Positions 23,751 to 57,615 of a stretch of 64,000 nt of DNA are shown here, piece by piece. The notes beneath the pieces were generated by a model. The model was not told the DNA's origin and made no database searches. It saw nothing but the letters and a program-made list of their open reading frames with translations. Within the stretch, counting starts at the first letter, position 1. The number at the start of each line of letters is the position of its first letter. A program made the position numbers and the translations under genes. Source of the DNA: Pseudonocardiaceae bacterium (lineage in GTDB: Bacteria > Actinomycetota > Actinomycetes > Mycobacteriales > Pseudonocardiaceae); NCBI GenBank assembly GCA_009377865.1, contig WHTH01000010.1, positions 1 through 64,000 on the forward strand, in the 5' to 3' direction.

Positions 23751-26104
<2,354 letters not shown>

Positions 26105-26105
<1 letters not shown>

Positions 26106-52410: not shown

Positions 52411-55400
52411 ATGAGCGAGACCGTCGGGACCGCCGCAGCCGAGTCGGCCGGGGGCGGGCAGCCCAAGCGCGCGCTGCGTGTGGAGCGCGTCTACACCACC
52501 GAGGGTCGCCACCCCTACGACGAGGTGACCTGGGAGCGCCGCGACGTCGTCATGACGAACTGGCGTGACGGCACGGTCAACTTCGAGCAGCGGGGTGTCG
52601 AGTTCCCCGACTTCTGGTCGGTCAACGCGGTCAACATCGTGACCAGCAAGTACTTCCGCGGCGCGCCCGGTACCGAGGCGCGCGAGTCGAGCCTGCGCCA
52701 GCTCATCGACCGGGTGGTCGGCGTCTACACCGCCGCCGGCCTCGAGCACGGCTACTTCGGCAACGAGACCGACGCCGAGATCTTCTCCCACGAGCTGACC
52801 TGGATGCTGCTGCACCAGGTGTTCAGCTTCAACTCGCCGGTCTGGTTCAACGTCGGCACGTCCTCGCCACAGCAAGTCTCAGCGTGTCAGCCCTACGACG
52901 CGCTGGTCAGCACTCCGGGTGGAATGGTGCCTATCGGTCACCTCGCCGAGCAGGACGCGGTCGGGACGAAGGTCTACGACGCGCATGGGCTCACCCGGGT
53001 CATGGCCACCAAGTCCAACGGGGTCAAGGACGTGCTGCGGATCCACACGAAGGCCGGACACCGGCTGGACGTCACGGCCGACCACCTCGTGTGGCGTTCC
53101 AGCGGTGAGGGGTGCGGCAGGTTCGTGCCCGCTGGCGAACTCCGATCAGGGGACAAGCTCGAGTGGCACCGGCGGTCCGCATTCGGGGGTGATGAGATCG
53201 ACTCCCGGACCATCGCGGAGGCCGCGCTGGCGGGATGGCTGCAGGCGGACGGCTTCGTCGGGCAGTACACCGGCACGAACCGGTCACTGACGATCGAGGC
53301 CATGACCGTCACCGACGCCGAACTGGCCTGGGTGTCCCAAGCGCTCGACCAGGTCTTTCCCGATGTCCACCGGCACGAGAGGTGCGTGGCCACGCAGGAC
53401 ACGTCGCTGGACTGTCGGCGGACTCGGCTGTACGGAACGTCACTCGGCGAGTTCGTCGAGCGGTGGGGCCTCAGGGCACGCGGCACGGACATGTGGGTGC
53501 CGCAGGAGCTGTTCAATGCGCCGTTGCCGGTCGTAGCCGCGTACCTGCGGAGCCTCTTCCAAGCTGAGGGCTACGTGTCGCCACGAGGACGTTCAACTCT
53601 TGTTGGTCTGAGCATGATCGGCGAGGAATTGGTCCGCGGCATCCAGGCGCTGCTTGCGCGGTTCGGCATCTTCGCGCGGGTGGGCCGCAAGATCGAGAAG
53701 CGTGCCGACCGCCATGACCTGTGGGGTATCCGGATTCAGAGTGCTGGCGACCGCAGGCTCTTCGCCGACGAGATCGGCTTCATCGACCCGGTGAAGGCCG
53801 GCAAGCTGGAAGTGTCGTTCGACCTCCCCGGGCAGCCCGCGCGAGACGTCAAGCAACTCCAGATCGCCCGGATCGAGCAGCGCGGTGCGATGGAGGTCTA
53901 TGACATCCAGACCGAGTCGGGTGAGTACCTGTCGAGCAACCTCCGGGTGCACAACTGCTTCATCCTTTCGGTTGATGACACGATGGAGTCGATCCTCAAC
54001 TGGTACCGGGAAGAGGGGCTGATATTCAAGGGTGGCTCTGGAGCGGGCCTGAACCTGTCGCGGATCCGTTCGTCGAAGGAACTGCTGTCCTCCGGCGGCA
54101 CCGCCTCGGGACCGGTGTCGTTCATGCGCGGGGCCGACGCCTCCGCGGGGACCATCAAGTCCGGCGGTGCCACCCGGCGTGCGGCCAAGATGGTCGTGCT
54201 CGACGTCGACCACCCCGACATCGGCGAGTTCGTCGAGACGAAGGCTGCCGAGGAACGCAAGATCAAGGTGCTGCGCGACGCGGGCTACGACATGGACCTC
54301 GGCGGCAAGGACAGCACGTCGGTGCAGTACCAGAACGCGAACAACTCGGTGCGGGTGTCCGACGAGTTCATGCGTGCGGTGGAGACCGACGGCGAGTTCG
54401 GGTTGCGGACCCGGATGACCGGCGAGGTCGTCGAGACGGTGCGCGCCAAGGACCTGTTCCGTGACATCACCCAGGCCGCCTGGGAGTGCGCCGACCCCGG
54501 GTTGCAGTACGACGACACCATCAACGACTGGCACACCTGCCCGGAATCGGGACGTATCACGGCATCTAATCCGTGTTCCGAATTCCTTCATCTCGACAAT
54601 TCCAGTTGCAATTTGGCGTCGATCAATCTCATGAAGTTCCTTCGTGAGGACCTCACATTCGATGCCGAGCTCTTCACCAAGACGGTCGAGCTGATCACCA
54701 CCGCGATGGACATCTCGATCTGCTTCGCGGACTTCCCGACGGAGAAGATCACCGAGGTGACCCGGGCGTTCCGGCAACTCGGTATCGGATACGCCAACCT
54801 CGGGGCACTCCTGATGGCGACCGGACACGCTTACGACTCCGATGGCGGTCGGGCACTGGCGGCCTCGATCACCTCGCTGATGACGGGTACCGCCTACAAG
54901 CGATCCGCCGAGCTGGCCGGGGTCGTCGGACCGTACGAGGGTTATGACCGCAACGCAGCCCCGCACCAGCGGGTGATGCGCAAGCATGCGGCGGCCAACG
55001 ACCTGGTCCGCACCTATGACCACAACGATTCCGTCGTGCAGAAAGCCGCGGCCAGAGTGTGGCAGGAAAGTATCCGGACCGGTGAGCGGCAGGGCTGGCG
55101 AAACGCACAAGCCAGTGTGATCGCGCCGACTGGCACAATTTCGTTTATGCTAGATAGCGACACCACCGGAATCGAGCCGGACTTCTCGCTGGTGAAATAC
55201 AAGAAGCTCGTCGGGGGCGGGTCGATGCAGATCGTCAACCAGACGGTGCCCAAGGCGCTGGCGTCACTGGGCTACCAGGACGAGCAGAGCGAGGCGATCG
55301 TGGAGTACATCGCCGAGCACGGCCACGTCATCGACGCTCCGGGGCTGCGGCCCGAGCACTACTCGGTGTTCGACTGCGCCATGGGGGAGCGGGCCATCGC

Positions 55401-57615
55401 GCCCATGGGCCACGTTCGGATGATGGCGGCGGCGCAGCCGTTCGTCAGCGGCGCCATCAGTAAGTGTGTCATCGGCGAGACTCTGGTAACCACGGAGGAC
55501 GGCTTGGTCCGCATCGGTTCGCTCCATCAAGGCGAGGATAACGACAGTTTCCGACCTGAGGTCGTAAAGGTCGGTAGCCTTGGTGGTCCGCGCAAGACCG
55601 ATGCGTTCTACTACGGCGGAACGCGACCGGTGCGTGAGGTTGAGCTGCGTTCTGGTCACCGCCTCTCCGGTACGCTGAACCACCGCCTCATGGTCGCTAC
55701 TTCAGAGGGACCGGTATGGAGGCCGCTCGCGGAGATCAGGGCGGGCGACTACGTAGCTCTGCAGTACGGTAACGAGATGTGGTCGACGTTGTCCGCACGC
55801 ATCGACAATTTCACGCCATCCGCTCGGTACGGATGTCAGAAGGAGGTGCGTATCCCCGATGAGATGACGGAGGAGCTGGCGTTCCTGCTCGGTGCGTACG
55901 CCGCGGAGGGGCACACCAGCGAAGGAACTTGGTCGGTGGTTATTACCAACTCGGTCGACGTGGTACTTGAGCGGGTGGCAGCGGCATGTCGATACGTCTT
56001 TGGCATCGAGCCGCGGTTCGAACGCCGGTCTGACAGGTGCCCGCAGGTGATCATCTCGAGCAAGACCGTCGTCGAGTTCTTGCGGCACCTCGGTTGTGGC
56101 GGACGTGCGTCGCAGAAGCGCATTCCCGATGTCGTCCTTCAATCGCCCAGGGAGATGGTCCTGGCGTTCCTGCAGGGACTGGCCCTCGACGGCTACGTCC
56201 ACGTACCAGCCGGGCGGCGCACTGGACAGGCGAAGTGGGCTTTGTGCGTGGACTCTTCCGGGCTGCTCGACGATCTGCAGGCGGTTCTGACGAACTTGGG
56301 TGTGGTGCATGGTCGCGTGGACAAGCTCAACAAGGAGAACGGCAAGACCTACGGAGAGGTGTACGCGTCCGGTGAGCAGGCGCGACGGCTCTCGATGCTG
56401 GTGCCATTCGTCGAACCCGACAAGGAAGCGAACGCTCGCAGACTTCGGGATCGGTCGTTCGCACACAGCACGGCGGACGTCATTCCGGGACTCAGTGGTC
56501 CGCAGCTGTACGAAGGTATCCCCGAAAGCCGGCGCAACAGCTTCAGGCATCTGCTCGATTTGCGTACCCACAACGTGAGCAGGCGGACGGTGGAACGTCT
56601 AGCAGAGATACCTGGAGTCCTTTTGCCCGCTTGGGTTGTAGAAGCTCTTCGCGACAACCTACGTTTCAGCCCAGTTGATCATGTCGACGACGACATTGGC
56701 GACAGCGAGGTATACGATATCTCGGTGCCGGACACACATGCCTTCGTGGGCAACGGGATTGTCAATCACAACACCGTGAACATGCCGGAGCGGGCCACCG
56801 TCGCCGAGGTCGCGGAGATCTACTTCCAGTCCTGGAAGATGGGGCTCAAGGCGCTGGCGATCTACCGGGACAACTGCAAGGTCGGCCAGCCGCTCTCGAC
56901 GGGTAAGTCGTCCGCGTCGACCACCGAGGTCGACAAGGCCGTCGCCGAGGCCCGGCCGATCCGCAAGCGGCTGCCCAAGAAACGCCCGAGCGAGACCGTG
57001 TCGTTCGCCGTCGCCGGCGCCGAGGGCTACCTGACCGCGGGGTCCTACCCGGACGACGGCCTGGGCGAGATCTTCGTGAAGATGTCGAAGCAGGGCTCCA
57101 CGCTGGCCGGGGTGATGGACGCCTTCTCCATGGCGATCTCGATAGCGCTGCAGTACGGCGTTCCGCTGGAGACCTACGTCTCGAAGTTCGTCAACATGCG
57201 CTTCGAGCCGGCGGGGATGACCGACGACCCGGACATCAGGATGGCGACCAGCGTCGTGGATTACCTGTTCCGCCGGATCGCGCTGGACTACCTGCCCTAC
57301 GAGAAGCGGGCGCAGTTGGGCATCTTCTCCGCCGAGGAGCGCACCGCTGCGGTGAACGGCGATCAAGGCTCGGCGAAGCCCGACGAGGAGGTCGACGTCG
57401 AGGGCATGCGCATCTCGGTGGACTCCACGGCGGTTCTGCCACCGGTGCAGCAGCGGCCAGCTCCGGTGTCGGTCGGTAGTTCCACGGAGTTGCTGGAGCT
57501 GCAGATGGGCAAGGCGGCCGACGCTCCGCTGTGCCTGACCTGCGGCACCAAGATGCGGCCGGCCGGCTCCTGCTACGTCTGCGAGGGCTGCGGGTCAACC
57601 AGCGGCTGCAGCTGA
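52411..57615 (+). CDS. nrdJ: Adenosylcobalamin-dependent ribonucleotide reductase (class II) with two inteins
   Basis: 1734 residues; without the inteins (357 and 436 residues) a normal 941-residue NrdJ remains. ATG 52411 follows GAGGGAGAA. Extein blocks: WRDGTVNFEQRGVEFPDFW, FSFNSPVWFNVG, NPCSEFLHLDNSSCNLASINL (active-site Cys region), QASVIAPTGTISFM, and a C-terminal CLTCGTKMRPAGS, CYVCEGCG double CxxC tail that probably reduces the active site. It makes deoxyribonucleotides from ribonucleotides using vitamin B12, so it works with or without oxygen. Residues 158/516 and 1018/1455 are the splice junctions. Two patches of AT-rich codons in the extein are reported as a finding. Confidence 0.95.
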   Translation: MSETVGTAAAESAGGGQPKRALRVERVYTTEGRHPYDEVTWERRDVVMTNWRDGTVNFEQRGVEFPDFWSVNAVNIVTSKYFRGAPGTEARESSLRQLIDRVVGVYTAAGLEHGYFGNETDAEIFSHELTWMLLHQVFSFNSPVWFNVGTSSPQQVSACQPYDALVSTPGGMVPIGHLAEQDAVGTKVYDAHGLTRVMATKSNGVKDVLRIHTKAGHRLDVTADHLVWRSSGEGCGRFVPAGELRSGDKLEWHRRSAFGGDEIDSRTIAEAALAGWLQADGFVGQYTGTNRSLTIEAMTVTDAELAWVSQALDQVFPDVHRHERCVATQDTSLDCRRTRLYGTSLGEFVERWGLRARGTDMWVPQELFNAPLPVVAAYLRSLFQAEGYVSPRGRSTLVGLSMIGEELVRGIQALLARFGIFARVGRKIEKRADRHDLWGIRIQSAGDRRLFADEIGFIDPVKAGKLEVSFDLPGQPARDVKQLQIARIEQRGAMEVYDIQTESGEYLSSNLRVHNCFILSVDDTMESILNWYREEGLIFKGGSGAGLNLSRIRSSKELLSSGGTASGPVSFMRGADASAGTIKSGGATRRAAKMVVLDVDHPDIGEFVETKAAEERKIKVLRDAGYDMDLGGKDSTSVQYQNANNSVRVSDEFMRAVETDGEFGLRTRMTGEVVETVRAKDLFRDITQAAWECADPGLQYDDTINDWHTCPESGRITASNPCSEFLHLDNSSCNLASINLMKFLREDLTFDAELFTKTVELITTAMDISICFADFPTEKITEVTRAFRQLGIGYANLGALLMATGHAYDSDGGRALAASITSLMTGTAYKRSAELAGVVGPYEGYDRNAAPHQRVMRKHAAANDLVRTYDHNDSVVQKAAARVWQESIRTGERQGWRNAQASVIAPTGTISFMLDSDTTGIEPDFSLVKYKKLVGGGSMQIVNQTVPKALASLGYQDEQSEAIVEYIAEHGHVIDAPGLRPEHYSVFDCAMGERAIAPMGHVRMMAAAQPFVSGAISKCVIGETLVTTEDGLVRIGSLHQGEDNDSFRPEVVKVGSLGGPRKTDAFYYGGTRPVREVELRSGHRLSGTLNHRLMVATSEGPVWRPLAEIRAGDYVALQYGNEMWSTLSARIDNFTPSARYGCQKEVRIPDEMTEELAFLLGAYAAEGHTSEGTWSVVITNSVDVVLERVAAACRYVFGIEPRFERRSDRCPQVIISSKTVVEFLRHLGCGGRASQKRIPDVVLQSPREMVLAFLQGLALDGYVHVPAGRRTGQAKWALCVDSSGLLDDLQAVLTNLGVVHGRVDKLNKENGKTYGEVYASGEQARRLSMLVPFVEPDKEANARRLRDRSFAHSTADVIPGLSGPQLYEGIPESRRNSFRHLLDLRTHNVSRRTVERLAEIPGVLLPAWVVEALRDNLRFSPVDHVDDDIGDSEVYDISVPDTHAFVGNGIVNHNTVNMPERATVAEVAEIYFQSWKMGLKALAIYRDNCKVGQPLSTGKSSASTTEVDKAVAEARPIRKRLPKKRPSETVSFAVAGAEGYLTAGSYPDDGLGEIFVKMSKQGSTLAGVMDAFSMAISIALQYGVPLETYVSKFVNMRFEPAGMTDDPDIRMATSVVDYLFRRIALDYLPYEKRAQLGIFSAEERTAAVNGDQGSAKPDEEVDVEGMRISVDSTAVLPPVQQRPAPVSVGSSTELLELQMGKAADAPLCLTCGTKMRPAGSCYVCEGCGSTSGCS
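52885..53955 (+). other. NrdJ intein 1 (357 residues)
   Basis: Begins with Cys in CQPYDALVSTPGGMVPIGHL and ends LRVHN before extein Cys of CFILSVDD. Block B is VTADHLVWRSS. Endonuclease helices are seen as LAGWLQADGFV and LRSLFQAEGYV, typical LAGLIDADG with Gln-Ala-Asp/Glu variants; the second acidic residue is Glu, so nuclease activity is uncertain. Confidence 0.93.
55465..56772 (+). other. NrdJ intein 2 (436 residues)
   Basis: Begins Cys (CVIGETLVTTEDG) and ends IVNHN; the first extein residue is Thr (TVNMPERAT), so splicing uses a Thr nucleophile. Block B is LSGTLNHRLMVATS. Endonuclease helices: FLLGAYAAEGHT and FLQGLALDGYV. GC and codon use are visibly lower than in the extein (many GTA, CTT, AAG-TGT type codons), which suggests later arrival from another host. 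Confidence 0.92.

Follow-up and report, generated by a model that had tools for sequence, protein, structure and literature searches.

Patches of A/T-ending codons at empty intein sites in a Pseudonocardiaceae nrdJ gene, probably linked to past inteins

Once an intein is lost nothing of it stays in the gene, and estimates of loss rates usually rely on where inteins are present or absent on a tree. The nrdJ gene of a Pseudonocardiaceae bacterium raises the question of whether an insertion point that is now empty may carry the mark of an earlier occupant in its codons. The gene lies in a stretch of 64,000 nucleotides (assembly GCA_009377865.1, contig WHTH01000010.1, positions 1 to 64,000 of the forward strand), which will be called the window. 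The original prediction for this DNA was that two AT-rich codon patches at conserved motifs of the NrdJ extein could be scars of inteins since lost. We will use G000 for the window's genome, G001 for the genome of a sister species and L002 for the nrdJ of that species; among the genomes listed, the window's genus is represented by G000 and G001 only.

The window's gene encodes a class II ribonucleotide reductase, NrdJ. Positions 53956-55464 match the ribonucleotide reductase barrel domain (Pfam PF02867, E=4.9e-134), and the relatives with a solved structure, 7b9q and 1xje, are B12-dependent. Two inteins are resident in the gene, both of them matched by Pfam LAGLIDADG_3. The features are listed below, with a slash for the insertion point within a motif.

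52411..57615, plus strand: nrdJ, B12-dependent (class II) ribonucleotide reductase with a 941-residue extein and two resident inteins (open reading frame, Pfam, structures)
52885..53955, plus strand: resident LAGLIDADG intein of 357 residues at site A, SA/CFIL (extein mapping, Pfam)
53956..54042, plus strand: weak dip with A/T-ending codons beside intein A, also upstream of it at 52867-52884 (11/35 codons on both sides, p 7e-4)
54544..54663, plus strand: patch 1, A/T-ending codons around the empty site B, between 54573 and 54574, NP/C (codon counts; about half common to the sister species)
55015..55155, plus strand: patch 2, codons ending in A or T that lie for the most part upstream of site C, which is empty, between 55134 and 55135, PTG/T (codon counts)
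55465..56772, plus strand: resident LAGLIDADG intein of 436 residues at site D, AISK/TVNM, with no codon dip beside it (extein mapping, Pfam)

The GC content at third codon positions (GC3) of the extein is 0.894 (942 codons, stop included), and along its length the two predicted patches do appear as the two strongest dips. Patch 1 has 18 of 40 codons ending in A or T (binomial p 3e-8), and its first codon is also where the best 30-codon window of the whole extein begins; in patch 2 the count is 17 of 47 (p 3e-6). The bounds first given for patch 1 were right to within 5 bases, while patch 2 starts about 15 and ends about 40 bases earlier than had been proposed. Amino-acid make-up was considered as a trivial cause and rejected, since both patches stay significant when the A/T-ending rate of each amino acid is taken from 168 other genes of the window's genome (4.5 and 5.8 codons expected in patches 1 and 2; p 4.1e-8 and 1.5e-5). 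With the same correction the dip at intein A has 6/30 codons within 15 codons of the site (p 0.07), and the flanks of intein D show no A/T-third dip in the window's nrdJ. A fourth, weaker dip of the gene is located at 54775-54855 (9/27, p 1.3e-3), at QLGIGYANLGALLMATGHAYD; the intein sites seen lie elsewhere. In 336 kb sampled from the genome, 90 genes have a GC3 of 0.87 or more, and 4 of them contain a comparably dense window, with at least 16 A/T-ending codons in 40. Dense patches are therefore not rare in this genome, and the evidence lies in the position of the patches, not in their mere existence.

The sister species shares the two patches to different degrees. Over extein residues 345-394, around patch 1, 9 A/T-ending codons are common to the window and L002, 9 are found in the window only and 4 in L002 only, as would be expected of one old tract worn down in two lineages. 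Over residues 510-564, around patch 2, the corresponding numbers are 4, 14 and 1, and L002 has no significant patch at site C (4/28 codons). The 9 codons in common with G001 place the event at B before the split of the two species; the event at C may fall mostly after the split, or its trace may be better kept in the window's species. Because the tracts are only partly common with the sister species, a wearing-down towards host codon usage is inferred. Patch 2 also holds residues that are rare among 190 relatives (I546 in 6, S553 in 2, L556 in 2 and S558 in none), of which S553 and L556 are also present in L002. F367 of patch 1 is likewise found in none of the 190 other bacterial NrdJs compared.

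To place the patches among relatives, 390 genomes of the family were searched for NrdJ and the relatives' codons were mapped onto the 941-residue extein; the sampled rows are biased to close relatives because searches return the best matches first. NrdJ inteins are found at four points, A (SA/CFIL), B (ASNP/CSE), C (APTG/TI) and D (AISK/TVN). Site B is codon 54574, inside patch 1, and site C is codon 55135, inside patch 2, so each patch contains a point that is occupied at the same codon in relatives, and the claim that both motifs are intein sites is borne out. The exact point B is occupied in seven counted family members (L157-L163) and in a viral contig locus (L116), with two further B inteins in the wider class (L260 and L265), and the exact point C is occupied in 19 family members in the counts. 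Inteins at D were found in four genomes only (the window, L093, L262 and L264), and that of the window groups with that of L093, a Nocardioidaceae metagenome-assembled genome (MAG), at 62% identity. L093 also has the motif TISFML and a mini-intein at site A; site-A mini-inteins of 139-141 residues, which are too short for an endonuclease, occur in L078, L093, L240 and L262. In the alignment with 1xje, the extein residue directly behind A corresponds to residue 134, a redox cysteine, and the cysteine at B is presumably the thiyl-radical cysteine. Three NrdJs of the sister genus (L164-L166, in G244, G246 and G242) are divergent, at 70-73% identity, and where other NrdJs have the usual motif of site C these three read TSGLAMDVD; this is perhaps a replaced gene.

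Several rows were dropped before the counts, namely copies of the gene of the window or of G001 (L001, L183 and L218), the viral loci L111-L117 and the divergent L164-L166. Sequences with fewer than 850 codons covered were left out of the occupied-versus-empty set, and those with fewer than 800 codons covered or more than 97% alike were left out of the replication set; the coverage and likeness filters removed some intein-bearing loci (L080, L262, L264 and L310). L055 is nearly identical to L009; the early sets count it as a row of its own, and it was dropped from the replication set on. The window and L002 are left out of the occupied-versus-empty tests, and L002 (G001) is counted within the 130 intein-free sequences. 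Window sizes and thresholds were chosen after the patches of the window had been seen.

The 130 intein-free sequences, G001 included, have a mean A/T-third deviation of about -0.02 at B and 0.00 at C, whereas in occupied alleles the mean peaks near +0.08. Patches in relatives that never held an intein would have spoken against scars; these 130 sequences, presumably never invaded, show no mean excess. Within 15 codons on either side of the site, occupied alleles exceed empty ones at A (22 versus 168, p 5e-6), at B (7 versus 183, p 5e-4) and at C (19 versus 171, p 2e-3). When permuted within genus, the excess has p 0.0002 at B, 0.009 at C and 0.15 at A, and on phylogenetically independent pairs it is significant at A (median p 0.039), borderline at B (0.06) and not significant at C. 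The excess that accompanies a resident intein is thus significant on independent pairs at A only. An A/T excess in the top quartile is seen in 20/29 occupied alleles at A, 8/9 at B and 12/19 at C, as against 42/218, 54/238 and 50/228 empty ones. The inteins themselves mostly have a lower GC3 than their own exteins (47 of 49); those 49 range from 0.65 to 0.95, and patch 1, at 0.55, is below all of them.

The direction and identity of the codons also agree in part with the occupied alleles. Occupied C alleles have their excess upstream of the insertion only, the same asymmetry as most of patch 2. Of all codons in the gene, GAA at +2 shows the closest association with intein B; it is carried by 6/7 occupied and 10/183 empty alleles, and the window carries it as well. 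For inteins A and C the codons with the best association lie elsewhere in the gene; the one exception is GTA at position -6 of site C, which ranks second. The excess in occupied alleles, together with GAA at +2 in both occupied alleles and the window, suggests that gain alone makes tracts.

Every NrdJ was also scanned for A/T-third patches over extein residues 20-840. The first set of 192 sequences has 17 patches with p<1e-4, two of them in near copies (L009 and L055), and 14 of the 17 lie within 25 codons of a site, D counted. In the replication set of 58 sequences, with a preset threshold, 4 of 8 patches are near a site (p 0.11), and the three strongest are at C, B and B. In the 249 pooled genes, 17/24 patches with p<1e-4 are at A, B or C (4.5 expected), as are all 8 with p<1e-6, the window's among them (1.5 expected); without the window and G001 the numbers are 15/22 and 7/7. 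By excess, the window comes second among the 239 alleles that are empty at B and sixth among the 229 that are empty at C. All 8 of the strongest patches (p<1e-6) are in alleles empty at the site concerned, a skew that could be due to chance once the window and G001 are removed (occupied 0/57 versus empty 7/684). The comparison with relatives that had been proposed thus came out in favour of scars: A/T-third is raised in occupied alleles, and the highest values belong to scattered alleles which today have no intein at the site.

Tracts that persist at sites with a putative loss were found in L121 and L122 at C, in L002 at A and in recA, on trees whose inner nodes are weak. The C inteins of L143 and L144, both of the sister genus, have a synonymous difference of 0.294 and their exteins one of 0.313, so the inteins have diverged like the exteins, as under vertical descent. 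The tree rejects L143 and L144 as one clade (AU p 0.018) and places L121 and L122 with them, at inner nodes of 46-47%. L121 and L122 are empty at C and carry the patch (14/27, p 3e-3, and 16/27, p 2e-4); judging from this placement, they have probably lost intein C yet kept the patch. The A inteins of the window and of L122, a sister-genus species, are sisters with a support of 0.88, so intein A was probably in the common ancestor; L002, which is empty at A, has a patch there (9/28, p 8e-4). Site A gives mixed results within this clade: six sister-genus alleles lack the intein there, two of them (L119 and L143) have an A/T-third excess with p<0.05, and L122, which is occupied, does not reach that level.

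The recA gene of the same window has an intein and a patch of its own.

23751..26105, plus strand: recA with a resident intein and the same kind of mark as nrdJ
24504..25814, plus strand: resident RecA intein of 437 residues, KNK/C...HN/C (splicing-domain match)
25815..25890, plus strand: patch of A/T-ending codons directly after the RecA intein (10/30 codons versus 19/204 far away, p 1e-3)

The recA patch is partly common to the intein-free sister species, and the rest of the sampled family is without it. Six close relatives have an intein-free recA, L326 in the window's genus and L327-L331 in the sister genus. As a group they show an A/T excess (p 9e-5) against 39 other family members, whose mean excess at the site is -0.007; four of the six are significant singly, and L326, of the sister species, is not (8/30, p 0.14). 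The residue at +1 is cysteine in all six and in the three occupied alleles, while the 39 others have valine (37) or threonine (2) and never cysteine. This cysteine may have preceded the intein invasion. Separately, the region after Walker A (23955-24050) has an A/T-third fraction of 0.30-0.35 in the window and 0.30/0.20 in G001, versus 0.02-0.06 in other family members; it is possibly another vacated site, though none of the genes sampled showed an intein at this place. Elsewhere in G000, the dnaB match is split by about 137 residues (contig C39; L318 and L319), likely by a mini-intein, and on contig C73 (L321) a 1304-residue frame gives a match to intein splicing that falls short of the curated cut-off.

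Based on these observations, an intein-linked origin of patches 1 and 2 is very probable, and we lean towards the reading that they are homing conversion tracts which have outlived resident inteins B and C, since lost. As expected from intein biology, the motif of an empty nrdJ would have been cut by a LAGLIDADG endonuclease. During repair the intein would have been copied in, and with it, on one side, as much as about 120 bases of donor extein richer in A/T-ending codons. The intein would then have been lost exactly, presumably through recombination with an intein-free copy or by precise deletion. Foreign-looking synonymous codons persist at both sites, and at C some residues do as well. The idea of scars is thus supported by the match to the sites and by the comparison of intein-free with occupied sequences. 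Among the observations that count against it, the strongest patches all fall at sites without an intein, which a pure gain model would not predict, patch 1 is poorer in GC3 than every intein measured, and searches of phage records, plasmid records and the class sample gave no donor.

The search for a donor gave leads only. Both patches had only distant or short matches in phage records (tblastn and blastn) and in plasmid records (blastn), and a 67-residue query around C against 394 genomes of the class gave at most 77% identity among the matches listed, the window apart. Among viral contigs, intein B had two hits, both of them weak and partial, and intein C had none; this search was insensitive, since it missed the B intein of L116. 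The motif TISFML is present in L002, L185, L191, L093 (as TISFMLDAD) and one viral locus, L239, and low-GC3 phage NrdJs carry TISFMM. Carriers of TISFML or TISFMM include viral NrdJs as well as a small number of distant actinomycetes, a distribution that may be taken as a lead to a donor outside the family. As no wider match to the window was seen in the carriers, phages are no more than a lead to the origin. Among patched alleles empty at B, several pairs from different genomes share A/T-ending codons above chance (lowest p 0.001). One marker, GAA at +2, is common to the window and 6/7 occupied alleles, with no full donor match found. At C, sharing among patched empty alleles is no more than chance (15/15 pairs p>0.05), so no single common donor is claimed.

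The same data can be read as intein-linked conversion in which no intein took up residence: an empty site would be cut and mended from a foreign intein-free copy. In a related version a resident intein is removed by foreign intein-free DNA, and the tract marks a loss or an aborted homing and not a gain. Jointly, these two versions seem unlikely to us. The location of all eight strongest patches in empty alleles favours them, as do the phage NrdJs L111 and L117, with a GC3 of about 0.5 and the rare TISFM motif; on the other hand, occupied alleles show the excess too, and the cysteine at RecA +1 is kept in empty alleles, where a typical intein-free donor, with valine, would erase it. A bolder and still doubtful idea, held tentatively, is that synonymous-codon patches generally preserve a readable history of how inteins come and go in bacterial genes, and that the strongest ones, all at empty sites, may mark intein escape, in which the intein is lost or its cut repaired by conversion from foreign intein-free alleles (perhaps of phage) that recode the target as well.

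Horizontal recombination of the ordinary kind, with highly conserved motifs as its anchors and inteins uninvolved, is improbable. It would fit the conservation of the windows around A, B and C (0.921, 0.948 and 0.954, versus a gene median of 0.881), but 68 equally conserved codons elsewhere hold the centres of 0/8 patches with p<1e-6 and 3/24 with p<1e-4 (about 2 expected), and strong patches centre on the insertion points. Conservation was also rejected as a trivial cause, as it does not account for patch position. Selection on synonymous codons, whether for RNA structure, translation speed or a target recoded to block homing, has a lower probability again. The patched motifs presumably hold catalytic residues, and the codons most common among patched empty B alleles sit near the insertion, both of which would suit such selection; against it, the 130 intein-free relatives show no excess, and the tracts of the window reach 90 and 120 bases from the insertion points in the A/T direction. 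A blocking recode is further opposed by the B-associated codon that the window has in common with occupied alleles. The slimmest chance goes to an assembly chimera, with another organism's reads joined at conserved motifs, possibly in a metagenomic assembly: G000 has 121 contigs and 4.45% contamination, a fragmentation that leaves some room for it at patch 2, and S558 (patch 2) and F367 (patch 1) are in 0/190 other bacterial NrdJs, but patch 1 is partly common to the separate genome G001, like patches occur in strain-titled records that are not MAGs (L055, which is the near copy of L009; L091; L086; L084), and the sister species have the recA pattern too.

Conversion tracts that outlive their element have a counterpart in the group I intron of plant mitochondrial cox1, for which the accessible part of PMC3192709 describes an exonic co-conversion tract and one putative case in which the intron was lost and the whole tract kept. 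The cox1 case resembles the nrdJ patches in its homing endonuclease, the copied donor flank, the synonymous third-position markers and the tract kept after a putative loss. It differs as a plant mitochondrial intron with a downstream tract, whereas the nrdJ case has inteins of a bacterial chromosome, with tracts on either side that are recognised by third-position composition. In haloarchaeal mcm, intein homing co-converts a flanking residue, and gain and loss are frequent (PMC10643990, accessible part); the conversion of flanking extein and the frequent turnover are like the nrdJ case, while codon-composition scars at vacated sites are not described in that part. The accessible part of PMC5050341 does not treat codon scars at vacated intein sites, and no report of them was found in literature seen mostly as titles and the starts of abstracts, with subscription journals thinly covered. 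LAGLIDADG inteins are resident in NrdJ and RecA of the window, and the patches themselves differ from them in having no intein sequence. NrdJ, LAGLIDADG inteins and co-conversion are known parts; we did not find in print their combination with third-position patches that mark vacated sites.

Three nrdJ sites and one recA site behave here as if such patches marked vacated sites. If this reading is true, past occupancy would be readable from single genomes by means of third-position patches, the events could be ordered by the wear of the patches, and their donors could be sought. The cysteine kept at +1 in intein-free RecA would be a second mark, at the level of the amino acid, which can be checked in any intein host gene.
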